NCBI RefSeq assembly: GCF_900167535.1
Contig: NZ_FUYE01000014.1
Location: 62,001-126,000, forward strand
DNA: 64,000 nt
Reading direction: 5' to 3'
Origin: Prosthecobacter debontii
GTDB lineage: Bacteria > Verrucomicrobiota > Verrucomicrobiia > Verrucomicrobiales > Verrucomicrobiaceae
This document shows positions 2,484 to 62,308 of the stretch, piece by piece; position 1 is the stretch's first letter; each line of letters starts with the position of its first letter. Position numbers and translations under genes: made by a program. Below the pieces are notes generated by a model. That model was not told the origin of the DNA. It did not search any database and saw nothing but the letters and a program-made list of their open reading frames with translations.

Positions 2484-4019
2484 ATGGCAGAATCCGCTTC
2501 CAACCTTGTCCAAGCTGCAGCCGCCCCTGGTGAGCTGCCCGAAAAGGCGACCCCGAAACCGCAGTCCAATCCCTTTGGCCGTAAGCGGAATGAGATCCCG
2601 ACTGCGGAGGAATTGCTCGCCAACATCAACCGTCAGCTTCCCTTCAGTGACGAAGCGGAAAAAGGCGTCATTTCCAGCATTCTGCAGGACCCGAACGAAC
2701 GGCTCAGTGAGAGCCGCGTGACCCTGCCAGCGGCAGCTTTCTATCACGAGGCCAACCGGACCGTTTACGAAAAGCTCCTGGAGTTCTACGACAAGAATTT
2801 GCCTGTGGACCCAGTGATGCTCACCAATGCACTGCGGGATCAAAACCTGCTGGAGCGCGTGGGCGGGCCAGCCGCCATCACGGAGTTATTCACGTTCGTC
2901 CCGGTCCCGACGCATTACTCCTATTACAAAAAGATCGTCCTGGATAAGCATATCCTGCGGCAGATGATCCATGCCTGCTCGCTGAACATCGATGCGGCAT
3001 ACGAGTTCGGTAAAACGGAACTGGATGCGGATATCAATACGCTGATCGACCACAGTGAGCAGCGTGTGTTGGCGGTGCGTGAAGCCACGAATGGGAAGAG
3101 CGATGGTGTGAAGTCTCTGGCCTCCCACGTGGCCGAGGCCATCGATAACATCCAATACATGCTCGAGCACCCCGGGCAGCTCCGAGGTCTTTCCACGGGT
3201 TACAGCAAGCTGGATAGCATGAGCGGTGGTCTGCAGGGCAGTGAAATGTTCGTCATCGCGGCTCGTCCCTCCATGGGTAAGACCTCCCTCGCCATGAACC
3301 TGGTGGAGCACGTCGCCGTGGATTGTGACAAGCCTTGTGCGGTCTTCAGTCTGGAAATGAGTGCCACCATGCTGGTGCGCCGTCTGCTCGTCTCACGCGC
3401 CCAGCTTTCGTTAGGTGATCTCTCCCGCGGTCTCATGTCACGCGCTCAGATGGAGGCTTTGTCGAAAGCCACGCGTGAGCTGCAGAAGGCCACCATCCTG
3501 ATTGATGATACACCGGGTCTCGACGTGCTGGAAATGCGTGCCAAAGCGCGCCGCATGAAAAAGCAGCACGATATCCAGATGATCATGATTGACTACCTCC
3601 AGCTCATGACCTCCAGCAGCCGTCGTGCGCAGGATAACCGTCAGATTGAGATCGCGGAAATTTCAGCGGGGATCAAAGGCATCGCCAAAGAACTGAACGT
3701 GCCGATCATCGTCCTGGCCCAGCTCAACCGTTCCGTGGAAGGCCGTAAAGGCCAGCGCCCCGTGCTCTCCGACCTTCGTGAATCCGGCTCCATCGAGCAG
3801 GATGCCGACATGGTGGGCCTGCTCACCCGTGAAGACTACGCTGGCGGTAAGATGGAAGTCGGCACCGAGGAGGAAGAAGAGCGCAAGAAGGGGCAGGCCC
3901 TGCTCATCTTGGCGAAGAACCGTAACGGCCCGACCGATGACGTGCCCCTGCGCTTCATCGACTACGCCATGCGCTTCGTGGAACGTTTCCCTGAGGAAGG
4001 CGAAGCCGAGTCTCCTTGA
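2484..4019 (+). CDS. dnaB: Replicative DNA helicase DnaB
   Basis: 511 residues. An unusual Ala/Pro-rich N-terminal extension of about 50 residues precedes the helicase N-terminal helical domain (PFSDEAEKGVISSILQD, about 53-150). The RecA-like motor follows, with Walker A RPSMGKTSLAMN near residue 261, Walker B MIMIDYLQLM, and the distal motif SGSIEQDADMVGLLTRE. The hexamer unwinds DNA ahead of the replisome, hydrolysing ATP/dNTP. There is no intein and the motifs are intact. The ATG at 2484 was chosen because the protein then begins directly with the extension; no strong Shine-Dalgarno is visible. DnaA boxes lie just upstream. The gene stands alone, convergent with the cytochrome c peroxidase gene. 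Confidence 0.97.
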   Translation: MAESASNLVQAAAAPGELPEKATPKPQSNPFGRKRNEIPTAEELLANINRQLPFSDEAEKGVISSILQDPNERLSESRVTLPAAAFYHEANRTVYEKLLEFYDKNLPVDPVMLTNALRDQNLLERVGGPAAITELFTFVPVPTHYSYYKKIVLDKHILRQMIHACSLNIDAAYEFGKTELDADINTLIDHSEQRVLAVREATNGKSDGVKSLASHVAEAIDNIQYMLEHPGQLRGLSTGYSKLDSMSGGLQGSEMFVIAARPSMGKTSLAMNLVEHVAVDCDKPCAVFSLEMSATMLVRRLLVSRAQLSLGDLSRGLMSRAQMEALSKATRELQKATILIDDTPGLDVLEMRAKARRMKKQHDIQMIMIDYLQLMTSSSRRAQDNRQIEIAEISAGIKGIAKELNVPIIVLAQLNRSVEGRKGQRPVLSDLRESGSIEQDADMVGLLTREDYAGGKMEVGTEEEEERKKGQALLILAKNRNGPTDDVPLRFIDYAMRFVERFPEEGEAESP

Positions 4020-4073
4020 GTTGAATGAAGAAACCTTTTTCTTTTTTGGTTTTCATCGCAACTCGATGATGAC

Positions 4074-4129
4074 GTTGAACCTCTTTCGGATCGAAAGAGG
4101 TTCAACAATTCAGATCTTAAGAGGATCTG
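4074..4129. terminator. long perfect hairpin plus small hairpin between convergent genes
   Basis: A perfect 15-bp inverted repeat (GTTGAACCTCTTTCG at 4074-4088, loop GAT, complement at 4092-4106) is followed by a 6-bp hairpin (CAGATC 4111-4116 / GATCTG 4124-4129). It sits between the ends of dnaB and the peroxidase gene. Neither side has a clear T-run, so factor-independent termination is uncertain, but the position suits a bidirectional terminator or 3'-end stabiliser. Confidence 0.5.
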
Positions 4130-4178
4130 TTTCCACTTCCTGAAATCTGGCCAGCGGATCGATAGAACTCCATCGACC

Positions 4179-5198
4179 TCAGGCCTTCGGTGTATTTGGC
4201 CCGCTTTCTGGCAACCGAGGTTTGGCGATGTATTCTTTCGGCAACTCGCCTTTGAGTGACTTCAGAAAGGTCACAATACTGACGGTTTCTTCGTCTGTCA
4301 GTGTTTTGCCCAATTGATGCTCAGCCATCATTTTCACCATCTCATCCAGTGTCTTGACGGACCCATCATGGAGGTAAGGCCCTGTCTCCGTCACATTCCG
4401 CAGGCTCGAGACCTTGAAAAAGTGCTTGTCACTTTCCTGCTTGGTCGCCTCATAACGACCCAGGTCTTTGAGGCCCGGCCAAGCTTTCACGAGGCCTAGT
4501 TTATGATACATCGCGCCCCCAATAGCGGGACCGTTATGGCACGTGGCACACCCGGCTTTGGCAAAGGTTTCGTACCCTTTCTGCTCCTCTGCGGTCAGCG
4601 CTTCCTTGCGTCCCTTCAGGTATTCATCCCAACGGGCGGGAGTCACGAGACGGCGCTCAAAGGCTCCCACGGCTTTGCCAAAGTTGTCATAATTGACAGG
4701 ATCTTTTTCCTCAGGAAATGCTGCGTTAAAAGCCTCCACATAGCCAGGGATAGACTTCAGCACTTCCACGACAAAGTCAGCGCTCGGCATACCCATTTCC
4801 ACAGGGTTGAGCACCGGACCTTTGGCCTGTTCCTCCACGGATGGTGCACGACCATCCCAGAACTGAGCGATGTGTATCGCTGCGTTATAGACGGTGGGTG
4901 AACTCCGTCCCCCTAGCTTGCCTTCGTGTCCGGGAGAGAAAGGCAGATTGTCCTGGCCATACTTATCCAGCACATGGCAGCTATTGCAGGACATCTGACC
5001 GTTTTTCGAGATGCGTGTCTCGAAGTAGAGCATGCGGCCCAGTTTGATCTTGGCTTCAGTCAGTTCATTCTCAGGCGCAGGCATCTCCGTGGGGAGAGGC
5101 TTGAACATGGCCAAATAGGAGTCTGACAAGGCGTCCGCATGAGCCCATGAGGCGGCGAGGGCGAAGAACGTGGTCGTGATGAGATGTTTTGTTTTCAA
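4179..5198 (-). CDS. Di-heme cytochrome c peroxidase (MauG/CcpA family)
   Basis: 339 residues with a cleavable signal peptide (MKTKHLITTTFFALAASWAHA), so periplasmic. Two c-type heme sites are present, CNSCH at 71-75 and CATCH at 217-221, with the spacing of bacterial di-heme peroxidases. TGPYLHDGSVKTLDEMV near the C-terminus is the conserved block before the distal ligand region. Family role: reduction of H2O2 to water using cytochrome c or cupredoxin electrons; MauG-like oxidation of another protein cannot be excluded. The start is a TTG at 5198, because no in-frame ATG would retain the signal peptide. C-rich homopolymers (G6 at 5212-5217 and G8 at 5224-5231 on the plus strand) lie in its 5' leader. 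It is divergent from the TPR gene at 5391. Confidence 0.93.
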   Translation of the reverse strand: MKTKHLITTTFFALAASWAHADALSDSYLAMFKPLPTEMPAPENELTEAKIKLGRMLYFETRISKNGQMSCNSCHVLDKYGQDNLPFSPGHEGKLGGRSSPTVYNAAIHIAQFWDGRAPSVEEQAKGPVLNPVEMGMPSADFVVEVLKSIPGYVEAFNAAFPEEKDPVNYDNFGKAVGAFERRLVTPARWDEYLKGRKEALTAEEQKGYETFAKAGCATCHNGPAIGGAMYHKLGLVKAWPGLKDLGRYEATKQESDKHFFKVSSLRNVTETGPYLHDGSVKTLDEMVKMMAEHQLGKTLTDEETVSIVTFLKSLKGELPKEYIAKPRLPESGPNTPKA

Positions 5199-5390
5199 GG
5201 CTTAGGCGCTTGGGGGGTGGATTGGGGGGGGCGAAATTACGTCTCGCAGCTGTCCTTGATTACATACAATTTTTGATATCGAAGCCTCTCGCCGAAGGGT
5301 GCCCTTCACTTGCTTAAAGCTGTGCGTTTTTTGCGATCCGCAAGGGCACTTCCCCCCTTGCCTGTCGCGGCTCCGAAGCTAAGGTCCGTC

Positions 5391-6080
5391 ATGATTCTCC
5401 GCTGCGTCATCCCCCTCACGCTGGTGCTCGTAACGATCTTTTCCCAGGCTCAGGAGAAGACCTCTTCCGAGGTGCTCGAAAAGCTCAGAGAGGCGCAACG
5501 TCTGCAGCAAGAAAATCACTACAGCGAGGCCTTGCAAAAGCTCGACGAACTCGAAGCCGCGCACCCTGACATCCCGGACATTTACAACCTCCGCGGTTCC
5601 ATCTTTATGACCCCGGCCTTGCGGGATTTTGCAGAAGCGGAAAAGAACTTTGCCAAAGCCGAACAATTACGCCCGGAGGCCATCGAACCCCGCTTTAACA
5701 AAGGCGAATTGCTCTTCGTTAAGCATGAATGGGCTCAAGCGGAAGCCGCCTTCCAAAAGCTGCTCGATGACTACCCCAAGCTGCCGCTACAGATTCGTCA
5801 CCTGACGCTCTACAAGCGCCTCGTTTGTGAAGTCAAATTAGGTAAATTCGAAGCGGCAGAAAAGACATTGAAAGATCACTTCACCTTCATGGATGACACG
5901 CCGGCTTATTATTTCAGCCATGCAGCCATCGCTTTTGGTAAAACCCATGAGGGTGAAGCCAAAGACTGGCTCGCGCGTGCAGAGGCAATCTTCAAGCCCG
6001 CCGAACTGACCGCCTACCTGGATACCTTGATGGAAGTCCGCTGGGTGCCCAACATCAGCCTGCCCTTTTCAGAGCAATAG
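5391..6080 (+). CDS. Secreted TPR-repeat protein
   Basis: 229 residues from the ATG at 5391. An in-frame TTG at 5310 would add 27 non-signal-like residues, so the ATG was preferred. The signal peptide is MILRCVIPLTLVLVTIFSQAQ. Tetratricopeptide-like helical pairs follow (YSEALQKLDELEAAHPDIPD, FAEAEKNFAKAEQLRPEAIE, WAQAEAAFQKLLDDYPKLPL). No catalytic residues were recognised; TPR arrays usually hold protein partners. It ends 9 bp before the hydantoinase gene, so the two could be cotranscribed, though the functional link is not evident. Confidence 0.85.
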   Translation: MILRCVIPLTLVLVTIFSQAQEKTSSEVLEKLREAQRLQQENHYSEALQKLDELEAAHPDIPDIYNLRGSIFMTPALRDFAEAEKNFAKAEQLRPEAIEPRFNKGELLFVKHEWAQAEAAFQKLLDDYPKLPLQIRHLTLYKRLVCEVKLGKFEAAEKTLKDHFTFMDDTPAYYFSHAAIAFGKTHEGEAKDWLARAEAIFKPAELTAYLDTLMEVRWVPNISLPFSEQ

Positions 6081-6089
6081 CCTAAGATC

Positions 6090-9000
6090 ATGTGGAAAAT
6101 CGCAGCGGATACCGGTGGCACATTCACGGATGCCTTTGCCCGCGATCCCGAGGGTCGCGAAAGCCGCTGCAAGGTGCTCTCCACCGGCTTGCTACGAGTG
6201 CGTGTGACGGCGATCTCAGATGCTCATGGGTGGCACGTGGAGGCGCTACCCAACATGGGCCCTGGATTTTTCCAAGGCTTCATCGGGCAAGCTGGGCCAG
6301 TGCGAGTCTGCATCCGTCATTCCACGGCCGACCATCTTGAAATCGAACCTCAAGCGGCAGATGCTACTTTTCCATCGCTTCCTTTTCTGCTGGATCTTAG
6401 CACCGGCGAAGAAGCCCCCGTGCTGGCCGCGAGGCTTTTAACACACACCTCGTTAGGCCAAGAGTTCCCGCCCCTGGAGCTACGGCTAGCCACCACACGC
6501 GCGACGAATGCACTGCTGGAGCGTAAAGGCTCTCCCACCGTGTTCTTCGTCACCCGAGGATTTGGGGATCTGCTGCGCATCGGGGATCAGCGCCGGGCGG
6601 ATCTCTTTGCGCTGAAACACGAAGCCCGGCCGGTCTTCGCCAAAGCGGTGGCGGAAGTGGCTGAACGCCTCACCTCTGACGGTCAAATCATCGGGCCGCT
6701 GGACGAAGAACAGGTTCGCCAAGAGGCCGAGCGACTCGTGAGTGAAGGCTATCGTCATGCAGCAGTGGCGCTCCTGCACAGTTACGCGCACCCTGAGCAT
6801 GAGCAGCGTGTGGCGGAGATCCTCTTCGAGGCAGGCTTCAGCCATGTCAGCGCCTCCAGCCAAGTGGCTCCCTTCACCAAGATTCTACCCCGAGCTCAAA
6901 GCGCTGTTGCCAATGCCTACCTTACAGGGCCGGTGGAATCCTTTCTTCAAGGTGTGGCCCGTCCGATGAAAGACGCCTCTTTCTTCATCCTGAATTCTGC
7001 AGGCGGTCTCGAATCCACGGCCACCATCCAGCCCAAGGACTTGCTGCTCAGCGGCCCGGCAGGGGGTGCCATTGGCGCGGCCAATGCGGCTGCGCAACTC
7101 GGCTACTCCCGCATTCTCACGCTCGATATGGGAGGCACCAGCACGGATGTCGCCCGCATCGACGGGCAGCCTGGTTATCGTTTCACTCAGAATGTGGCAG
7201 GTATGCAACTTCTGGCCCCCTGCGTCGCCATCGAAACCGTAGCGGCCGGTGGCGGCTCCATCTGCCAGTGGACTCCGCATGGTCTGACCGTCGGTCCCGA
7301 GAGTGCGAGTTCTCACCCAGGCCCAGCCTGCTATGGTCGCGGCGGCCCGCTGACGATCACCGACGTCAATCTCTTGTTAGGCCGTTTTGATCCGGCACGA
7401 GCCCCCATCCCGCTCGATAAAGAAGCCTCCAGAGCCCGCTTGCGAGAGCTGCTGGCTCTGAGCAGTGGCTTTAAAAGCGAAGACGAACTGCTGCACGCCT
7501 GCCTTCAACTTGCCATTGAGCATATGGCGGATGCCATCCGCCGCATCTCAGTGGCGGAGGGTTATGATCCTGCTGACTATGCTCTACTCGCCTTCGGGGG
7601 CGCGGGGCCCCAGCATGCCTGTGAGGTGGCAGATCGCCTGGGGATGAGCACGATTCTGGCCCCTGAGCATGCGGGCATTCTCAGTGCCGTGGGCTTGTAT
7701 CAGGCATTGCCAGAACGTTTCGCTGAGCAGCAGGTGATTAGCCCTCTCGGCGAGTGCTTGGATGAGGTCGATACGTGGGTGCAAGCCTTGGTCGAGGAAG
7801 CAAGCTCAACACTGAACAGCACCGCCATCGCCCCCGACGAGACACGCACCCCTCAGGCATCATTCATGGCGGAAATGCGCTTGCGAGGGCAAGATACGCC
7901 GCTTCAGGTTCCCTTCCAAACCGCTGTGGAGCTTCCCGAAAAGTATCGGCAGTCCTATCAACGTCTTTTTGGTTATCCTCCCCCTGCCCAACGCACTGTC
8001 GAACTGGTCAGCCTGCGGGTCATCGTTCGCGCCTGCCCCCCCGATCCTTCATCATCCACCTCGGTTCCGTCATCCGAGTCTCTCGGTGAGGGTCCGCTGC
8101 TGATCCAAGATGCCTTCAGCACGCTGGTGGTGACGGCAGGATGGCGCACTGAACGTGTGCCTGGATTTGGCCATGTGTTAAAAAAGATCCCCCACGCTGA
8201 GTCCTCCATAACGAACGATTCTGCACAAGGGCTCATGTCTCAGGCCTCACGACGTGATCTCGTCCGCCATCGCCTGCACAGCATCGTCTCAGAAATGGGG
8301 GCATTGCTTTGCCGCACCGCCATCTCCACAAATATCCGCGAGCGGCTAGACTTTTCCTGCGCTCTGCTGGATGCCGAAGGGAGGCTCATCTCCAGCGCTC
8401 CACACATTCCGGTGCATCTCGGCGCGCTAGGTGTCTGTGTGCGAGAAGCGACACGCGGTTTTGACTTGCAGCCAGGAGACACGTTGATCACCAATCACCC
8501 GGCTTATGGCGGCTCTCACCTGCCGGATGTCACTCTCATCACACCCGTCTTTGATCGGGAGGAAAAGTTGCTCGGGTTTGTGGCGAACCGAGCGCATCAT
8601 GCGGAGATCGGCGGTATCACGCCAGGCTCCATGCCTGCCGCGGCCACCCGGCTGGAGCAAGAAGGCGTCGTCATCCCGCCTCAGCATCTGGTGAAAGTAG
8701 GCGCATCCTGTTTTGAAACCCTCGCCAGCCTCCTGACCACAGGGCCGTATCCCACGCGCAACCTGGCGGATAATCTCGCTGACCTGCACGCTCAACTTGC
8801 CGCCAATCTCCAGGGAGCTCAACGTTTCCTCGAATTGGCAGGAGATGACTCACCGGCACTGCGGCAATGTCTGGCCAGCATCCTGGATCACAGTGCGGAC
8901 GTCATGCGCAAGCGCATCCCCCAGATCCAAGCGGGCATGGCAGAGCAGTCTTTGGATGATGGTGCGACCATCCGCGTGCAGGTTTCCCCGACCACTCACG

Positions 9001-9767
9001 GCCATCTGAAGCTCGACTTCACTGGCACCGCGCCCGTTCATCCAGGCAATCTCAACGCCACCCGAGCCATCGTGAATAGCGCCGTGCTGTATGTGCTGAG
9101 GCTGCTTCTTCAGGAAGATCTGCCCCTCAATGAAGGACTGCTGGCGCCGGTGGAATTGCACCTACCAGACAATACGCTTTTAAACCCGAGCTTCCCGATG
9201 GATGCGGCTGAGGCACCCGCCGTGGTCGGAGGCAATGTGGAGGTGAGTCAGCGACTCGTGGATACACTGCTTCAGGTGTTTCAGCTCCAGGCGTGCAGCC
9301 AGGGCACCATGAATAACTTCTTGTTCGGCAATGCCCGGTTCGGTTATTATGAAACCATCGCCGGAGGGACGGGCGCTGGAGACGGTTACGCAGGAGCTGA
9401 TGCGCTGCATAGCCACATGACGAACACCGCCATCACGGATCCAGAGATCATTGAGCAGCGTTACCCTGTCCGTCTCCACCAGTTCGCAATCCGGCAGGGC
9501 TCAGGAGGCAGCGGCCTATGGCGCGGGGGGCACGGTGTCATTCGTGAATTTGAGTTCCTCGAACCCCTAACCGTCTCCATGCTCACCCAGCATCGTCGTC
9601 ACGCCCCTTATGGCATGGCAGGGGGTAGCCCAGGAGCCTGTGGACGACAGACGCTGTGGCAAAATGGCATCGAGACGGAATTGCCCTCCAGCACCAGTTT
9701 TGCCGTGCAGCCAGGAGATCGCGTGAAGATCGAGACTCCCGGCGGAGGTGCGTGGGGCGAGGCCTAG
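6090..9767 (+). CDS. Fused hydantoinase/5-oxoprolinase (HyuA-HyuB type)
   Basis: 1225 residues. The N-terminal half (about 1-650) is HyuA-like, with the ATP-binding loops [10 protein letters not shown] at residue 8 and [14 protein letters not shown] near 350, and [17 protein letters not shown]. The C-terminal half (about 715-1225) is HyuB-like: [36 protein letters not shown] and GGGAWGEA at the extreme end. Eukaryotic 5-oxoprolinase has this fused arrangement, and many bacteria encode the two halves separately. Expected reaction is ATP-dependent opening of a cyclic amide (5-oxoproline to glutamate, or N-methylhydantoin); the substrate is not decidable here. The linker at about 645-700 is Ser/Pro-rich. 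It is a cytoplasmic protein following the TPR gene by 9 bp. Confidence 0.93.
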
Positions 9768-42563: not shown

Positions 42564-42634
42564 AAAGGCCGGTGGGACTCGAACCCACATCCCCTGCTTG
42601 GCAAACAGGTGTCTTTCCTTTGGACCACGGCCAG
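42564..42634 (-). tRNA. tRNA-Gly-like sequence (GCC), degenerate acceptor stem
   Basis: Read on the minus strand, there is a perfect T-arm GTGGG-TTCGAGT-CCCAC and an anticodon arm CCTGT-TTGCCAA-GCAGG with anticodon GCC. The short D-arm GTC-CAAAGGAAA-GAC contains GG. The acceptor stem pairs only over five bases (GGCCG/CGGCC); the outer two are T-T and C-T mismatches, and no CCA is encoded. About 70 nt, with a 4-nt variable loop. It ends 19 bp before the ATG of the SDR gene. It could be a real but aberrant tRNA-Gly, a decayed one, or a leader structure. Confidence 0.5.
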
Positions 42635-54303: not shown

Positions 54304-54664
54304 GGGCGGGGGCGGGCCGCTACGGGAGCGGATGCCACAGACGGAACAGAGCATGACGAAAGTGTCAAATCTGTAACATAACTCAAAAGCCTCTAAGAAC
54401 GGAAAAAGCCATACGTTAAGTGCCTCAGCATCAAGCTTAAAGATGCACAACGCGGACAACAAAAAGAGTGTCAAAGGATCAAGAACAGTCGTGACAAAAA
54501 ATCAGCAACTGAGTATTTCTTGTCACTTTTCCGTTAAAAATGACTCGTTTGTGCCCAACCACCAAACGTCAGGAGACAGGGATATTCACCCGAGGAACCA
54601 CGGCTGAACAGGGTTTGGCATTGCTCCCGAGGAACGGGCTGTGATTTACTTTTTCGTGTCCATC
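54304..54664. other. 361-bp divergent regulatory gap (phosphate genes / TPR-Exb operon) with dyad
   Basis: No gene recognised. A 12-bp dyad with one mismatch, GTGACAAAAAAT (54491-54502) / ATTTCTTGTCAC (54515-54526), is followed by TTTT (54527-54530). Between divergent genes a terminator is unlikely, so it may be an operator. AT-rich sequence at 54470-54550 contrasts with the neighbouring coding DNA. A TGTCAAATCTGTAAC string at 54364-54378 resembles a Pho-box half only loosely, with 9-bp period instead of 11. No promoter hexamers were convincing. Confidence 0.4.
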
Positions 54665-57517
54665 ATGCGAAGCTACGTTTTCCGTCTTCTTTTGCTCACC
54701 GCCCTGTGCCAGCAGGTTTCGGGCCAGACACCCCCTCCTGCTCCAGCGGCACCCGGCAGCCTCAATATCCAGCAGGAGACGGAGGCGCTGATGGCGGATG
54801 CCCTGCAATTTTTCCAGCAGGCCAAATACGCCGATGCGTTGAAGAAAATCGATCAGGTCAAAACCAACCTGAATAACAAACCCTTCGCGCAGGTGCTGTT
54901 TGTCGAGGGCGCATCCTACTTCAATCTCAACGAGTATGACAAAGCCATCCTGGCCCTCGAGGAGTATGTGAAAAACTTCCCCGATGGCGAATACCTGGGC
55001 GTGGTGCAGATGGCCCTGGGCCGCAGCTACATCAATAAAGGTGATACGAACAAGGGGGTCTCCGTCCTCAAAGACCTGGCGGCTCGCTCCCCCGACATGA
55101 AAGCGGAGGCCGGACTCTTCATCGCCGAGGCGCTGAAAAAGGAAACCAAGTTGGATGAAGCGCTGACCGTGTTGAACTCCGTGCTGGAGGGCGGCATCCG
55201 CAGCAGTGAGGCCATCCAGGCGGCCATGATGGCGGCGGATCTCTATGTGGCGAAGGGTGAGCTGGATCAGGCCAGTGCGCTCATGGAAAAGGTGAAAGGC
55301 TTTGCCACCGGGGGCGACAACGTGGCGCAGATGAACAACATCTACCTCAAGCTCGGGGATCAGATGCTGGAGAAAAAGAGCTTCCGCGAGGCCCTGGGTG
55401 CCTATCAGCTCGTGCGCCGGAAAAACGAGATCACCCGCCTGCAGAAAGAGGTGATTGGGAAAATCGAACAAAGCCTGAAAACTCCAGGCCGGGGCCCCAT
55501 CCGCGGCACGAAAGAAGAACTGGAGGGAAAGCTGCAAACCAACAAGGCTCTCCTGGCCGAGATCGAAGGCCGAGCCGACTACGATGCCTCTCTGTATTAT
55601 CGGTTAGGCCGTTGCTACTTTGAGATGGGCCGACTCTGGGAGTCACTGCTGGCCTTCGAAGTGATCGTTCGGGACTTCAAGGAATTCCCGCAGCGGGATC
55701 GCTGCCTGTTCGGCATGATCATCGCGAATGCCCAACTCAAGCGGGTGCGCACGGCCCGTAAGCTCTGCGAGCGCTACATCAGCGACTTTCCAGAGGGCAG
55801 CGAGCTTGGCACCGTCTCCGAGATGTATGGCATGCTGGCTTATGAAAACGGCCAGCTTCAGGAGGCTGCGGATGCTTTCCAGAAAGCCGAGAGCTTTCCT
55901 CAGGCCGATAAGGAGCGGCTGCGCTTTCTGCGCGGCAACGTGCTCTTTGAGATGCAGCGTTTTGACAAAGCGCGCGAGACCTTCGAGCAACTGGTCAAGG
56001 AGTTCCCCGAGTCCGCCTACAAAGACGATGCGCTCTACCGCGTCGCGTTGATCTACTTCTATCAAAATGACTCCGTCAGCACCAACAAGGCGCTGAAGAA
56101 CTACATCGAGCAAAACCCGAAAGGCCAATACGTGGTGGATGCACGCTACCGGCTGGCCTTCATCAAGTTCCAGGCGCGGGATGTGGACGGCTCCATGAAG
56201 GATCTGCAGGAGATCATCAAGGATGCACCCAATGATCAAAACATCGGTCAAGTGCATGCCCTGCTGGGAGATGCCTACAATCAAAAGGGCGAGTATGACA
56301 AAGCGCTGGAGCACTTCGCCCTCGGCGTGGATAAAGCCAAGTCCGAAGACGTGCTCAGCTACGCCCTCGATCAAGCCACAGACCTGTATGCCGGCACCGG
56401 TCGGTGGAAGGAACTCGGGGACATGTGGCAGAAGTATCTCACCACGCACAAGGACAACGAAGACCAGGAACTGAAAGCCGTGCTGTGGATCTCACGAGCC
56501 CGCGTGAAAGAGAACAAAGTGGAGGAGGCCAAGCAACTGCTGGCCGAGGCCATCCGTCCGAAGATCCCCAATGCGACGAACCAACAGGTGGAAGGCCTGA
56601 TTCAGCAGCTCGTCACCCTCAGTGCACCGAAACGCCGCCGTCCTGTGCCCACGACTGCCAGCAAGGATGCACCCGCGCCTGCCCCTGCAGCCGAGGTCAC
56701 CTCCGCTCAGCTGGAAAAGGATCTGGAAACCCTGATCACGCCTCCAGAAGCTGCCATGAATGGCACGGCCCAGATGCGCATCCTGTTTGCCAAAGCCTGG
56801 CTGGCCAAGGTGATGCGCGAGCCTGTCAAAGCGGAGAAACTTTTCACCGTGATCATTGAGGTGGCCAAGCCCGAAGACCTCAGCCCCATGCTGCTCTCCA
56901 CGGTGGGGGACAATGCACGGCAGAAGGGTGATCTGGAAAAGGCTGCCGCCTGCTACACCCGCCTGAACGAATTTTACAAAGACACCGAGTATGCCGATGG
57001 AGCCGCTGTGGGCCTGGCCGAGATCGCCTATGCCAAGGGCGAGTATGAAAAGGCGCTGGAACTCTTCACAGCCGCCATTGAGGAATACGCCGCCAGCTCC
57101 CGCCTCCAGGATGCCACGCTGGGTAAGGCCAAGAGCCTGTTCAAACTCAAGAAGTATGCCGATGCCAAGAAGCTCTACGAGCAGATCCTGAACACCAAAG
57201 AATGGCGTGGTGAAGCCCATGCCACCGCGCTTTTCATGCAGGGCGAGATCGAGTTCGCTAACCAAAAGTGGGGTGAAGCCATTCCGTTCTATCAGCGTGT
57301 GTTCATCGCCCATCAGAAATGGAAACCCATCATGGCCCAGGCTTACCTGCAATGCGCCCGCGCTTTCCTGAAGCTCAATCGCCCGGCAGAGCCGCCAGAA
57401 CGTAAATATGAGGATCGTGAGGCCGCCAAACTCCTGCTGATCGAAATGACCAAGCGCCAGGACCTAAAAGACCTGCCTGAGATGCAGCAGGCACAGCAAG
57501 AACTCACCAAACTGTAA
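54665..57517 (+). CDS. Large periplasmic TPR protein
   Basis: 950 residues from ATG 54665 with a signal peptide (MRSYVFRLLLLTALCQQVSG); an in-frame GTG at 54641 adds eight residues. At least a dozen TPR/Sel1-like units fill the protein (YADALKKIDQVK, YDKAILALEEYVKNFPDGEY, FDKARETFEQLVKEFPESAY, YEKALELFTAAIEEYAASS). A Pro/Ala-rich break lies near 665-690. There is no catalytic motif. It is probably a periplasmic scaffold; it heads the Exb operon, with 12 bp to the next gene. Confidence 0.9.
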   Translation: MRSYVFRLLLLTALCQQVSGQTPPPAPAAPGSLNIQQETEALMADALQFFQQAKYADALKKIDQVKTNLNNKPFAQVLFVEGASYFNLNEYDKAILALEEYVKNFPDGEYLGVVQMALGRSYINKGDTNKGVSVLKDLAARSPDMKAEAGLFIAEALKKETKLDEALTVLNSVLEGGIRSSEAIQAAMMAADLYVAKGELDQASALMEKVKGFATGGDNVAQMNNIYLKLGDQMLEKKSFREALGAYQLVRRKNEITRLQKEVIGKIEQSLKTPGRGPIRGTKEELEGKLQTNKALLAEIEGRADYDASLYYRLGRCYFEMGRLWESLLAFEVIVRDFKEFPQRDRCLFGMIIANAQLKRVRTARKLCERYISDFPEGSELGTVSEMYGMLAYENGQLQEAADAFQKAESFPQADKERLRFLRGNVLFEMQRFDKARETFEQLVKEFPESAYKDDALYRVALIYFYQNDSVSTNKALKNYIEQNPKGQYVVDARYRLAFIKFQARDVDGSMKDLQEIIKDAPNDQNIGQVHALLGDAYNQKGEYDKALEHFALGVDKAKSEDVLSYALDQATDLYAGTGRWKELGDMWQKYLTTHKDNEDQELKAVLWISRARVKENKVEEAKQLLAEAIRPKIPNATNQQVEGLIQQLVTLSAPKRRRPVPTTASKDAPAPAPAAEVTSAQLEKDLETLITPPEAAMNGTAQMRILFAKAWLAKVMREPVKAEKLFTVIIEVAKPEDLSPMLLSTVGDNARQKGDLEKAAACYTRLNEFYKDTEYADGAAVGLAEIAYAKGEYEKALELFTAAIEEYAASSRLQDATLGKAKSLFKLKKYADAKKLYEQILNTKEWRGEAHATALFMQGEIEFANQKWGEAIPFYQRVFIAHQKWKPIMAQAYLQCARAFLKLNRPAEPPERKYEDREAAKLLLIEMTKRQDLKDLPEMQQAQQELTKL

Positions 57518-57529
57518 CCGCCGTCCTTC

Positions 57530-58444
57530 ATGAACTCTCGCTCCACTTCCTTCATGCGGCCCCGGTTAGGCACCCTGCGTCTGGCGCTGGCCATCGTCAG
57601 CTTCGCCGCCATGGCTTTCGGTCAGGCCATCGTGCTGAAAGACGGCACCCGCGTGCCTGAAAATGAATTCAAGCTCGATGGCGATAAGATCCTGCGCACC
57701 CTCAACATCGGCGGCAATACCGCCACCACCGTGCTGCCCTGGCAGAACGTGGCCTATCTGGAATGGCCCGAGCCGGCGGAACTGCTGGAAGCCAAGGATC
57801 TGATGGCTCAGGCCAAGTTCGATGAAGCGGTGGCCCTATTGAAGAAGTCGCTCGATTTCTTCCAGAAGTTCGAAAAGATCGAGGGAAACTGGTATCAGCC
57901 CATCTTCTTTGCCTATGTCGAAACCTTGAGCCAGGCGGGAAAATTCGAAGAGACCATCAAGCTCTTGCCGCAGCTCCGTGCCCTGCCTCTCACTGACGCG
58001 CAGAAGATGACGCTGCGCATCATCCAGCTCGATATCGACCGCCAGACCTCCACGGAATACACCTCCATCCTGGCTGAGGCCGAGGGCATCCTGAAGGACA
58101 CCGATGACTCCGCTGTCGGCGCGGCCATCTGGATGATCATCGCCGACATTCATGCCAAAAAGAAGGAGTGGGAAAAGGCGCTCATGGCCTACCTGCGCAT
58201 CCCCGTCTTCTTTGGCACCCAGATGCAGCGCGTGCCGGAGGCCGAGCTGAAGGCAGGCCAGATGCTGGTGAAGATGAAACGCTATGAGGATGCCCACGCC
58301 ATCTTCACCCGCCTCGTGGAGGGCTACAAAGGCTCCGCCATCTCCGAAGCCGCCACCAAGGAAAGCGCGGCCATCAACGGCATGAAAAACGAACCCGAGC
58401 CGGAAACCGATGCCGCGCCCGATGCGCCTGCCAAGCAAAGCTGA
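57530..58444 (+). CDS. TPR-like periplasmic protein, second gene of the Exb operon
   Basis: 304 residues. The start is ATG 57530; ATG 57554 (MRPRLGTLRLALAIVSFAAMAFG) gives a cleaner signal peptide. Residues about 35-75 form a beta-rich domain (IVLKDGTRVPENEFKLDGDKI, TVLPWQNVAYLEWP), resembling DUF-type 'KDG' modules. TPR-like helices follow (FDEAVALLKKSLDFFQKF, FEETIKLLPQLRALPL). The tail is acidic and Pro/Ala-rich. It lies 12 bp after the TPR gene and 65 bp before exbB. Function unknown. Confidence 0.85.
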   Translation: MNSRSTSFMRPRLGTLRLALAIVSFAAMAFGQAIVLKDGTRVPENEFKLDGDKILRTLNIGGNTATTVLPWQNVAYLEWPEPAELLEAKDLMAQAKFDEAVALLKKSLDFFQKFEKIEGNWYQPIFFAYVETLSQAGKFEETIKLLPQLRALPLTDAQKMTLRIIQLDIDRQTSTEYTSILAEAEGILKDTDDSAVGAAIWMIIADIHAKKKEWEKALMAYLRIPVFFGTQMQRVPEAELKAGQMLVKMKRYEDAHAIFTRLVEGYKGSAISEAATKESAAINGMKNEPEPETDAAPDAPAKQS

Positions 58445-58509
58445 CTGACTTTCTCCCCCACTGCCACCCTCCCTTTCATTCACGAATCCCAACCATCCCA
58501 GCCCCGTCC

Positions 58510-59391
58510 ATGACCCTCCGTTCTCTGTCCTCCGTGACTCGTCCCCTCACCCGCCTCCTGGCCCGTTTCAGCGCCTGTGCTTTTCTCCTCGGCGGCAGCC
58601 TGCTCATCGTCGCCCCTGTGCATGCTCAGGAGGAGGAGGCCGCGGCGGAGGGAGATGCCAAAGCCCCGACAGGCCATGAGAAAACCCTGATGGATCAGTT
58701 CCATGAAGGCGGCTGGGTCATGTATCCCATCACCGCCTGCTCCGTCGCCCTGATTTGGTTGATCACTGATCTGTGGTCCCGCACCAATATCCGCCGCATG
58801 GCTCCGGGAGAGCATGTCACTCAGGTGCAGGATCTCTTCCGCGCGGGTGACTACGTGGGCGCTTACCAGTTCTGCAAAAATAACAACTCCGCCTTCTGTG
58901 ATGTCTCGCGTGTCGCCCTCAGCTTCGTAGGAGATGGTGAAGAAGCGGTGGAAGCGGCCCTGTTCACGGAACTGAATAAGGTGAACTCCATCATCCAAAC
59001 CCGCATCAACTACCTCTCCGTCATCGGGGTCTGCACCCCGATGATCGGCCTCACTGGCACAGTGACCGGGATGATGAATGCCTTCGAAACCCTCGGCACC
59101 AGTGGCGTGGGTGACCCCTCGAAGCTCTCCGCCGCCATCGGTGAGGTGCTCGTGGCCACCGCTTCCGGCCTGTTCATCGCCGTGCCTGCCTTCATGTTCT
59201 TCTACTTCCTGCGCAATCGACTCCAGGGCTCCATGCATCAGCTGCAGGAGGTCGTCGGGGCTCTTTTCCGCAAGATGCCTTATGCGCACCTGAAGGATGC
59301 CCACGTGGGTGAAGAAGAGTTTTACGCCGCCATCCCGAACTGGGTGGCCGGTGCCGGTGAGCCCGCTGTGGCTGTCGCAGTGGCCGGCTAA
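58510..59391 (+). CDS. exbB: MotA/TolQ/ExbB proton-channel protein
   Basis: 293 residues. It has a longer N-terminus than TolQ: a signal-like hydrophobic stretch (FSACAFLLGGSLLIVAPVHAQ, about 20-40), an acidic spacer, then helix 1 (MYPITACSVALIWLIT, about 72-87) and the paired helices 2-3 (INYLSVIGVCTPMIGLTGTVTGM; IGEVLVATASGLFIAVPAFMFF). The conserved Thr/Gly pore faces are present. It forms the pentameric stator that uses proton-motive force with ExbD. Next gene 53 bp downstream. Confidence 0.93.
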   Translation: MTLRSLSSVTRPLTRLLARFSACAFLLGGSLLIVAPVHAQEEEAAAEGDAKAPTGHEKTLMDQFHEGGWVMYPITACSVALIWLITDLWSRTNIRRMAPGEHVTQVQDLFRAGDYVGAYQFCKNNNSAFCDVSRVALSFVGDGEEAVEAALFTELNKVNSIIQTRINYLSVIGVCTPMIGLTGTVTGMMNAFETLGTSGVGDPSKLSAAIGEVLVATASGLFIAVPAFMFFYFLRNRLQGSMHQLQEVVGALFRKMPYAHLKDAHVGEEEFYAAIPNWVAGAGEPAVAVAVAG

Positions 59392-59444
59392 ACCCGTCCG
59401 GACGAACCTAACCAACTATTAATCAACCTCAAACTGACACGCTT

Positions 59445-59882
59445 ATGGCTGGAGGAGGCGGAGGTGGAGATGGAGAACCGGAGTTTCAAATCGCTCCGAT
59501 GATCGACGTGCTGCTGGTGCTGCTCATTTTCTTCATGAGCATCACCTCAGCTCAAGTCCTGCGCATCGATCAGGACATTCGTCTGCCCGTGGCGGCAGAT
59601 GCCAAGAAAAAGGATGATAAGAACGCCATGTTCGAGGCATCCATCAATGTCAGTTGGATCGCCGCCCGGCAAGAGGCCAAGATTAAGCTGGATACCCAGG
59701 AGCTACCCAACGAAGAGATCGTCAAGGTGCTCACGGAGCGGAAGAATAACAACCCCACTTACCGCGTGATCATTCGAGCAGATCGGGATGTGCTGGCGGT
59801 GGAAATCCAAAAGGTCATGGCCCTCATCGCCCAGGCGGGCATCGACGACATTTCCTTTTCAACCCTCAACCAGGACTCCTGA
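59445..59882 (+). CDS. exbD: ExbD/TolR biopolymer transport protein, first copy
   Basis: 145 residues. It has a short Gly-rich cytoplasmic N-terminus, then one helix with the essential Asp (QIAPMIDVLLVLLIFFMS), then a periplasmic peptidoglycan-binding-like domain (YRVIIRADRDVLAVEIQKV, near the C-terminus). The Asp carries the proton through the ExbB pore. The gene's stop (59880-59882) is 2 bp before the ATG of the second exbD. Confidence 0.93.
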   Translation: MAGGGGGGDGEPEFQIAPMIDVLLVLLIFFMSITSAQVLRIDQDIRLPVAADAKKKDDKNAMFEASINVSWIAARQEAKIKLDTQELPNEEIVKVLTERKNNNPTYRVIIRADRDVLAVEIQKVMALIAQAGIDDISFSTLNQDS

Positions 59883-59884
59883 GC

Positions 59885-60352
59885 ATGGCGCACAAAAAGA
59901 AACATCGCACGCTGGACACGGAGCAGGTCAACATGGGCTTTCAGATCGCCCCCATGATCGACGTGGTCTTCGTCATCATGCTGTTCTTCATGGTCATGGC
60001 CGGAGCCGTGAAGGTGGAGCGGGAATTGAAGACTCAGCTCCCCGGCCTGGGCACCCCTGCACTGGCGGATGAAAACACACCACCGGATGAGATTCTCGTC
60101 ACCGTGGAGGAGACGGGCATCGTCACACTCAATGAGGAAGAGTTCGATACGCCCACGGATAAAGCGCTCCCGAACTTCACCGCCACCCTGCTGCGCCTCA
60201 AGCAAGAGGCGGATCACCGCAATGCCAAAGTCATGGTGACGATCCAGGCCGAGGAACAGGCTCGCTACGAGCGCGTGATCGACGTTCTCAACTCCATGGC
60301 CAAAGCCAAGATCGCCAACGTGACCTTCACCGTCGGCGGCGACGATTTCTAA
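59885..60352 (+). CDS. exbD: ExbD/TolR biopolymer transport protein, second copy
   Basis: 155 residues, paralogous to the first copy. A Lys/His-rich N-terminus (MAHKKKHRTLDTEQVNMG) is followed by the Asp-bearing helix QIAPMIDVVFVIMLFFMVMA. The periplasmic domain ends VMVTIQAEEQARYERVIDVLN. It differs from the first mainly in a longer acidic loop (ADENTPPDEILVTVEETGI). Two ExbD paralogues next to one ExbB suggest a heterodimer at the channel. Confidence 0.93.
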   Translation: MAHKKKHRTLDTEQVNMGFQIAPMIDVVFVIMLFFMVMAGAVKVERELKTQLPGLGTPALADENTPPDEILVTVEETGIVTLNEEEFDTPTDKALPNFTATLLRLKQEADHRNAKVMVTIQAEEQARYERVIDVLNSMAKAKIANVTFTVGGDDF

Positions 60353-60421
60353 GCCGTTCATGAACCGCCGCTAAACCGGACCCAGCCCTTTTCGTTTCAA
60401 CATCCAAACCCATCGTTTGTT

Positions 60422-62308
60422 ATGTCCGACCATCCATCATCTCCGCAGGGCGATGAGTCCTCTCCTCCAGTGCCGCCTAAGATCACCGGCACCCAAAAGC
60501 TGGGACCACCGCCGAGCTATGGGCCAGGGCATCTCGGATACCCGGGAGCGGCCCCGACGAATTCTCTGGGTTATCCGGTGCAGAATGAGCTGGGCTATCC
60601 CATCCAGCCGGGGATCCCTGGGTATCCAGCGGCTCCCCAAGCATCCTCCGCTGAGCCCGTGAATGCGGCTCTTCCGGTGGACGAGGAACTGACGGTGGAC
60701 GCCGTGGCTGGAGAGGTCTTCCATCCTCCTGCCTTGACCCACTTTGAGACGAAGCGGCGCAATCCGCTCATCGAAGCTTGGCGTAAAGTGGGCGGGGGAT
60801 CACTCACCCTCAGCGTCATCATCCACGTCGGCATTTTGCTCGTCGGCGGCGTGATTGTGATCACCCAGCAGCAGGCGGAAAAGCAGGTGGACTTCCTCCC
60901 TGGCGGAGGCACTCAAAAAGGCGCACTGGCCTCGGCGGAGATGCAGCACAAGGTGCAGCAGAAAAAGCGCACCTCGCTGAATAAAACCATGCCGATGAAG
61001 AAGATCGTCAGCACCAATGCCAACTCTGAGATCACCCTTCCCGATGCACCGCCAGATCTGCTGGACGTGCCGGATGTGAGTTCCGCGCTCGGCAGTGGCA
61101 GTCTCGGTGCCCCCGGCTTCAGCAAATCGAGCGTGAATCTCACCTTTGGCTCCGGCAAGAGCATGAGCAGCATGGCCAGCTTCGTCACCCTGCCTCCCTC
61201 CATGAAGCAGCGCTGTGCCACCTCTGAGCGCTTGGAAAAACTGCGTCAGAATGGCGGCAATGCCGAATGTGAACGTGCCGTCTCAGCCTCGCTCGAATGG
61301 CTGAAGAGCCAGCAGCATAAAGACGGCTACTGGGGCCAGGCAGGAGGCAAACGAGATCGCGCTGCCATGACTGGTCTAGCCCTGCTCTGCTACCTCGGCC
61401 GCTGTGAGACGCCTGACTCGCCTTTCTATGGTGATAACGTCATGGACGCCATCATGTTCCTCGTGGAGCTGTCCAAAAAGAACCCCTACGGGGCCATCAC
61501 CGAAGACTTCAAAAGCAACCACGGGGCCTATGAGCATGGCATCGCCACCTATGCCCTGGGGGAAATGTATACCCTGGCCCGACTGGGCAGCAAGCAGCTC
61601 CCCGGCATGCGCGAGGCATTTGAGAAAGGCGTGAAGCTGATCATCGAGACCCAAAACAAGGCCGATGCCAAGAATGCCGAAGGCTCCTGGGACTATTACA
61701 CCAAGAACCTCGCTGAAGGCAAAAAGACCTCGAATCGCGAAGACCTCTCCGTGGCGGGCTGGCAGTATCAGGCCCTCAAAGCGGCCAAATACACCGGCTT
61801 GAAAATCGATGGTCTCTCCTCCGCCATCAATCGCACCTGCGACTACATCGAGCGCCTGCAGACCAAGGATGGCGGCTATGGGAAACCGGGACGCGACATG
61901 CACTACAACCAATGGAGCCTCACCGGCGTAGGCACCCTCGGACTCCAGACCCTGGGCAAGGGCCGCACGGCCTCCATCAAAAAAGGCATTCGTTTCCTGC
62001 GCGACTTCCTCACGGAGGAGCCGCTGGACTGGGAAAAGAACTGCAACCTCTACTGCTGGTATTATTACACCCAGACCTTCTTCCAAGCCGGTGGCGAGGA
62101 CTGGAAGTTTTACAACGAGCAATTCCTTCCGCAGATCTTGGCCGCGCAGCAGCCCGATGGCAGCTTTAAGAAAGGCCGCCCCAACTGGCCCATCGGCGAT
62201 GCCGCTGACCCCGTTTACCGTCAGGTGCTGTGCACCCTCATGCTGGAGGTCTATTACCGCTATCTGAAGGTGGGAGATCGTGAAGAAGAGAGCTTCTTTG
62301 ACCGATAA
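60422..62308 (+). CDS. Membrane-anchored protein with GYP repeats and alpha/alpha-toroid (squalene-cyclase-like) domain
   Basis: 628 residues. The cytoplasmic N-terminus is Pro/Gly/Tyr-rich with four GYP words (residues 39, 50, 58, 67). One membrane helix follows (LTLSVIIHVGILLVGGVIVI, about 128-147). A Lys-rich, low-complexity periplasmic spacer runs to about 280. The C-terminal domain (about 285-620) shows the repeats of prenyltransferase/squalene-cyclase-type toroids (WLKSQQHKDGYWGQ, YLGRCETPDSPFYGD, YIERLQTKDGGYGKPG, QWSLTGVGTLGLQTLGKG). No catalytic Asp cluster (DxDD) was seen, so it may be a binding toroid. Its topology and place after exbB-exbD-exbD fit a TonB/TolA-like energy transducer. 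Confidence 0.8.
   Translation: MSDHPSSPQGDESSPPVPPKITGTQKLGPPPSYGPGHLGYPGAAPTNSLGYPVQNELGYPIQPGIPGYPAAPQASSAEPVNAALPVDEELTVDAVAGEVFHPPALTHFETKRRNPLIEAWRKVGGGSLTLSVIIHVGILLVGGVIVITQQQAEKQVDFLPGGGTQKGALASAEMQHKVQQKKRTSLNKTMPMKKIVSTNANSEITLPDAPPDLLDVPDVSSALGSGSLGAPGFSKSSVNLTFGSGKSMSSMASFVTLPPSMKQRCATSERLEKLRQNGGNAECERAVSASLEWLKSQQHKDGYWGQAGGKRDRAAMTGLALLCYLGRCETPDSPFYGDNVMDAIMFLVELSKKNPYGAITEDFKSNHGAYEHGIATYALGEMYTLARLGSKQLPGMREAFEKGVKLIIETQNKADAKNAEGSWDYYTKNLAEGKKTSNREDLSVAGWQYQALKAAKYTGLKIDGLSSAINRTCDYIERLQTKDGGYGKPGRDMHYNQWSLTGVGTLGLQTLGKGRTASIKKGIRFLRDFLTEEPLDWEKNCNLYCWYYYTQTFFQAGGEDWKFYNEQFLPQILAAQQPDGSFKKGRPNWPIGDAADPVYRQVLCTLMLEVYYRYLKVGDREEESFFDR

Follow-up and report, generated by a model that had tools for sequence, protein, structure and literature searches.

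The force transducers described so far are TonB and TolA, joined in 2025 by a proposed vWA force-transducer class of the PVC (Planctomycetes, Verrucomicrobia, Chlamydiae) group (PMC12204202). In the available part of that proposal, the vWA transducers consist of a transmembrane helix with a Ser/His motif, a linker and a globular periplasmic head, and one tetratricopeptide repeat (TPR) gene, a tolQ-like gene and two different tolR-like genes lie upstream. For the E. coli motor, the available part of a cryo-electron microscopy study has TonB Ser16/His20 contacting ExbB Ser34/Trp38, and Trp38 in turn contacting Pro190 (PMC12215075). Here, we describe an operon of Prosthecobacter debontii (Verrucomicrobiota) at positions 54665-62308 of a 64,000-nucleotide stretch of contig NZ_FUYE01000014.1, called the window below. 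It comprises six same-strand genes in the order TPR1-TPR2-ExbB-ExbD1-ExbD2-toroid, the last encoding a protein with one membrane helix and an alpha/alpha toroid as its head. We consider it probable that the operon specifies a Ton/Tol-type machine that spans the envelope and is driven by protons, with the toroid protein as its TonB/TolA-like transducer and the head as an exchangeable part. The best reading is that of a new toroid head on the recently proposed vWA-class platform.

An earlier note on this DNA had suggested a new energised envelope machine. The novelty holds for the toroid head; the gene set had already been proposed with a vWA head in 2025, as far as the available part of PMC12204202 goes. 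The note's gene content is borne out: open reading frames occupy the coordinates below, and Pfam agrees with TPR, TPR, ExbB, two ExbDs and a toroid. The features, all on the plus strand, are as follows.

54665-57517, +: TPR1, large predicted periplasmic TPR protein of 950 aa; N terminus signal-peptide-like by eye
57530-58444, +: TPR2, second predicted periplasmic TPR protein, 304 aa; N terminus signal-peptide-like by eye
58510-59391, +: ExbB/TolQ-like proton channel (Pfam MotA_ExbB, 2.4e-24), with Ser78, Thr184, Thr217 and Pro226
59445-59882, +: ExbD1 (Pfam ExbD, 3e-19), Asp21 aligned to TolR Asp23
59885-60352, +: ExbD2 (Pfam ExbD, 3.1e-19), Asp26 aligned to TolR Asp23 (E 0.0035)
60422-62308, +: putative toroid-headed transducer, 628 aa (Pfam SQHop_cyclase_C, 8.4e-7)
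60800-60868, +: transmembrane helix of the toroid protein, with Ser131-x3-His135 (TonB Ser16/His20)
60881-60910, +: KQVDFLPGGG, a segment that follows the helix and is a candidate motor box by comparison with the available part of PMC12204202; VDF.P within it is mostly retained under each of the three kinds of head
61184-62305, +: predicted periplasmic alpha/alpha toroid head, residues 255-628, from a structure model

The gaps between the genes are, in order, 12, 65, 53, 2 and 69 bases, and an alternative in-frame GTG start for TPR1 is possible at 54641. The operon resembles the vWA force transducers, as the available part of PMC12204202 presents them, in the Ser/His helix, the linker and the globular periplasmic head, and in its upstream genes, which are TPR, tolQ-like and two distinct tolR-like ones. 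It differs in that the head is an alpha/alpha toroid and in having two TPR genes where one was reported; the word "toroid" is absent from PMC12204202. With TonB-ExbB-ExbD and TolA-TolQ-TolR it shares the channel threonines, the ExbD aspartate and equivalents of TonB Ser16/His20 and ExbB Ser34/Pro190. Unlike those systems, it has two different ExbDs and TPR partners, lacks the TonB/TolA C-terminal domain and ExbB Trp38, and is not flanked in the window by a receptor or Pal.

Conservation of the operon and its predicted motor contacts

The toroid protein was matched in 68 of the 68 genomes of its family, some matches being partial or falling on toroid relatives outside the operon, and a toroid profile was matched in 211 of 387 genomes drawn evenly across the phylum at a completeness of at least 85. 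The 102 loci examined were the window, a distant locus (L040) and 100 regions: 20 chosen for diversity, including L058, the vWA locus of the P. debontii genome, and L059 and L060, which are second copies, and 80 best-listed matches, selected among the matches listed and with few exceptions one per genome. Some matches at contig starts (e.g., G082, G211 and G286) were left out of this sample, and 13 of the 100 regions are shortened by contig ends to less than 7.5 kb, where motor genes may be missed. A full-length membrane-anchored toroid is present in 99 of the 102 loci. ExbB and two ExbDs precede it in 57 of the 99, and the order TPR1-TPR2-ExbB-ExbD-ExbD-toroid is found in 56, which represent 25 groups of family rank and 39 of genus rank, with one record left uncoded. 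The distant L040 has the same order at 36% identity. Since the order recurs in 56 of the 99 toroid-bearing loci, the grouping of these genes is not chance. The earlier note would have taken an unconserved operon order as a refutation, and the order is conserved.

Homologues of TPR1 and TPR2 are the first and second operon genes in 56 loci. TPR1 matches Pfam TPR_6 (3e-38) and further TPR families, as well as the NCBIfam models YbgF and BamD above their cut-offs; PorW/SprE, at 96 bits, falls under its cut-off. TPR2 gives weak TPR matches in Pfam, one of them above cut-off. Within 150 bases downstream of the toroid gene, 15 of the 57 motor loci have a gene that we take to be mutL from its IAAGEVV motif, and in one more (L090) it is 1.7 kb off; these loci include L049, L056, L085, L093, L095, L097, L099, L100 and eight more. 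The adjacency points to toroid operons being old, vertically kept loci. A number of toroid matches run across a single in-frame stop codon (e.g., G020:C12:182306 and G310:C1:4319954).

To compare the motor parts, the 57 ExbBs were aligned together with their E. coli counterparts, ExbB and TolQ, under three modes of MAFFT. The pore threonines Thr184 and Thr217, aligned to TolQ Thr145 and Thr178, are kept in 57 of 57, as is Pro226, aligned to E. coli ExbB Pro190. Ser78 aligns to ExbB Ser34, and the position is serine in 52 of the 57 motor loci. Both ExbDs of the window retain the transmembrane aspartate (Asp21 and Asp26) that aligns to TolR Asp23. Across the toroid helix alignment, His135 is invariant (19/19) and Ser131 nearly so, which gives the first half, Ser-x3-His, of the SHLS motif. 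The earlier note had allowed for the ExbD-interface residues being missing from this helix, and this pair is present. Counted over loci, [S/A/G/T]-x3-His is found in the helix of 51 of 57 where motor genes are present, compared with 16 of the 42 that have none adjacent (Fisher 7e-8, with loci counted singly and kinship ignored).

A number of observations weigh against a Ton/Tol-like coupling. The equivalent of ExbB Trp38 is not kept, being mostly V, A, I or L, and Ile82 in the window. The Leu and second Ser of SHLS (Leu27 and Ser31 of TonB) are absent from the window helix, which has Gly142 and Val146 there when read against E. coli TonB. Kinship does not enter the locus counts, and the contrast between motor and motorless loci weakens when each family group is counted once per state (20 groups with and 5 without the motif where there is a motor, 9 and 8 where there is none); family f2 contributes 19 of the 26 loci that lack both. 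The motif is missing from six of the motor loci (L085, L109, L122, L125, L139 and L142), and some of the 16 loci that keep it without adjacent motor genes are truncated by contig ends. All five loci without ExbB Ser78 are also without the helix motif, and L125 has lost the motif with the ExbB serine retained; this covariation would favour a contact but is suggestive only, because the tree requires just two losses of the serine, both accompanied by loss of the transducer motif, and significance is unreachable. Finally, the toroids of Akkermansia-like genomes have neither motor genes in the flanks examined nor Ser-x3-His in the helix, so the head can exist uncoupled.

In these Akkermansia-like genomes (group g12; L044, L045, L061, L076-L078, L080-L084), the membrane-anchored toroid genes frequently come as tandem pairs or triplets, and two copies in L045 are identical over an N-terminal stretch of 160 residues or more. 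The operon as a mucin utilisation locus (MUL) was rejected on the missing motor genes and motif of these toroids. MUL2 itself comprises amuc_1099-1102, with a type IV-like pilus at its centre (PMC13174399). Near 647 kb of one Akkermansia-like genome (L192, G179:C1:640000-657000, at 2891-9119) there is an ExbB-ExbD-ExbD-TPR locus of different gene order, which might be a candidate for the mucin locus MUL1.

On both sides of the window operon the flanking genes are on the opposite strand. By eye, the upstream neighbours are PhoU-like and phosphate-permease-like and the downstream neighbour is KH/R3H-like, and neither TolB nor Pal is seen among these flanks. A scan for promoters and terminators gave nothing clearly above chance, and the nearest downstream open reading frames listed for the loci include no common functional partner. 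The sole Rfam match in the window at gathering threshold is a tRNA gene at 42567-42632 on the minus strand.

The toroid protein and its head

The toroid protein consists of a GYP-rich N-terminal tail, a single hydrophobic helix (residues ~127-149) and the C-terminal alpha/alpha toroid. Basic residues precede the helix, from which the N terminus is predicted to be cytoplasmic (N-in). The GYP tail is a trait of near relatives, absent in the distant L040 and short or absent in others. No TonB_C or TolA C-terminal domain was found in the protein, for which Pfam gives toroid families only. With its one N-terminal helix, it has the TonB/TolA topology with a toroid replacing the TonB C-terminal domain that had been described from the sequence.

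A model of the head (residues 255-628), built from a seven-sequence alignment, is nearly all helical, with a mean predicted local distance difference test score of 77 and a predicted template modelling score of 0.84. VIA-align matches it to squalene-hopene cyclases (8paj, Z 25.4; 2sqc, Z 25.1; over 294-298 residues) and also to cellobiose epimerases and GH76 mannanases, and the list from Foldseek includes complement TED domains; the likeness to all of these is in the modelled (alpha/alpha)6 toroid fold. At Z ~25, the squalene-cyclase-like toroid anticipated by the earlier note is upheld by the prediction, as is its remark that no DxDD is obvious. When the entire toroid protein was searched by sequence against solved structures, no match fell below E 0.17. 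Like squalene-hopene cyclases, the window head carries three QW-like repeats; unlike them, the window protein has no catalytic DxDD and is a single toroid on a predicted membrane-anchored transducer. The short DxDD pattern is matched in 12 of 121 toroid relatives. Certain polar and aromatic positions hold the same residue in 90% or more of the 121 membrane-anchored toroids, e.g., Arg264, Gln298, Trp304, Tyr370, Glu381, Asp441, Ser443 and Trp447, along with Gln450, Tyr547, Tyr548, Gln551, Trp561, Asn565 and Arg613, and suggest a conserved site in the head. A first toroid tally of 123 proteins included L046:866 and L067:897, later found to be PA14-like; the residue tally of 121 and the family tally omit both, and the locus counts are unaffected.

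The best fold matches are mostly enzymes, and this near invariance of the core would also suit a membrane-anchored enzyme, terpene-cyclase-like or sugar-active, that shares the operon but is not driven by the motor. Toroids lacking adjacent motor genes or motif exist as well, one of them (L042) even without the helix-linker module described below. We nevertheless regard such an enzyme as unlikely, given the missing DxDD of the window protein, the motor-contact motif in most motor loci and the occurrence of the same module under other heads, vWA and PA14-like. A terpene cyclase was rejected as the principal interpretation for the first and last of these reasons.

One helix-linker module under three kinds of head

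Another protein of the same genome, L041, matches toroid residues 111-248 only, with 45% identity over 138 residues (1.1e-29), and then runs on into a domain in which a vWA-like DxSxS motif is present and Pfam gives no match at 0.1. A search with L041 gave a match in 66 of the 68 family genomes, toroid proteins being counted too via the common module; matches reaching the vWA-like domain occur in at least 55 of the 68. A profile of the helix-linker module has matches in 32 of the 57 genomes of the order, at up to nine places per genome. Twenty regions gave 23 module proteins, which by sequence pattern are 11 vWA, nine PA14-like, one toroid and two unassigned, and the helix motif is kept in all 23. 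When 10 of the 23 were scanned with Pfam, the two pattern-unassigned proteins (L238 and L240) proved to be PA14 above cut-off, with L243 at cut-off; L241 was VWA above cut-off, and the other six were under cut-off or had no match. L046:866 and L067:897 are likewise PA14 above cut-off. These PA14-headed relatives (L238, L046:866, L067:897 and L240) have the helix-linker module in common with the window protein and a PA14-like head, not a toroid.

The motor set is also shared. The complete TPR1-TPR2-ExbB-ExbD1-ExbD2 set stands ahead of vWA heads in L194, L250 and L253 (Pfam VWA under cut-off where scanned) and ahead of a PA14 head in L238; L195 has a like arrangement, its second TPR being matched only weakly. 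Among the eight ExbD places of the P. debontii genome, only the two ExbDs of the window adjoin each other, so the orphan vWA protein of this genome may use the window's motor. No description of toroid or PA14 heads was found in the literature, judged mostly on titles and the starts of abstracts, with subscription papers and preprints mostly outside the scope.

Further arrangements of these parts occur. The cytoplasmic tail of L238's PA14-headed transducer (6683-8317), which stands behind the complete motor set, includes a SAM domain. In L234 (7570-11915), three tandem transducer genes have PA14-like, vWA and PA14-like heads in turn, and no motor genes were found in 19 kb. Toroid proteins without a module match are seen directly before TPR1 (L051:5975-7057), behind a vWA transducer (L249:8552-9721) and standing apart in the P. 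debontii genome (L042:1384-2511); by eye, those of L051 and L042 have signal-peptide-like N termini.

The toroid protein might instead regulate, plug or anchor the ExbB-ExbD1-ExbD2 motor, e.g., by sensing a ligand and opening the proton channel in response. A large head would be able to act as such a sensor, and movement at TonB Ser16/His20 has been suggested, in the available part of PMC12215075, to reach the pore of the Ton motor. Against this, the helix-linker-head topology is that of TonB/TolA and, so far as the available part of PMC12204202 describes them, of the proposed vWA transducers, and the vWA paralogue retains a conserved linker over 138 residues; we give a regulator as little chance as an undriven enzyme. 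That the operon is the genome's own Ton or Tol-Pal system, its transducer having diverged, as the ExbB/ExbD homology and the YbgF match of TPR1 might suggest, is highly improbable and was rejected, since the genome has a separate locus (C17) with ExbB, ExbD and a TonB_C protein, eight TonB-dependent receptor plug matches and an ExbB-ExbD-x-x-OmpA locus (C4) that resembles Tol-Pal (TolA/TolB labels by eye), and the toroid protein has no TonB_C. TolB_N was not found in this genome by a search that, as a control, found it in E. coli.

Proposed working and meaning for the phylum

Returning to the proton-driven transducer, we infer its coupling, force and outer-membrane target as follows. The motor would consist of ExbB, ExbD1 and ExbD2, with counts of five and 1+1 if it follows the Ton and Tol structures. 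The transducer would be the toroid protein, with its cytoplasmic tail, one helix, flexible periplasmic linker and toroid head. Through Ser131 and His135 the helix would sit on the outer face of ExbB, and proton flow through ExbB/ExbD would move or tension the linker. Standing in for the TonB/TolA C-terminal domain, the head would hold, close to the outer membrane, a ligand or partner that is probably conserved and possibly a glycan or an envelope protein. The TPR proteins are probably periplasmic or at the outer membrane, where they would receive or position the head. A role in large-polymer uptake would be a guess from the biology of the phylum (PMC13174399).

Toroid and PA14-like heads on one module and motor set would make the exchange of heads a design rule, and the system spans a phylum known for large-polysaccharide uptake. 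More tentatively, and with the odds in our view against it, Verrucomicrobiota may have a third general proton-driven class beside Ton and Tol, with a two-ExbD motor and interchangeable toroid, vWA and PA14-like heads, several per genome on few motors, which would seize large polymers or surface structures and carry them across the outer membrane. If this is true, the "selfish" polysaccharide uptake of the phylum would have an energised step in such a machine.
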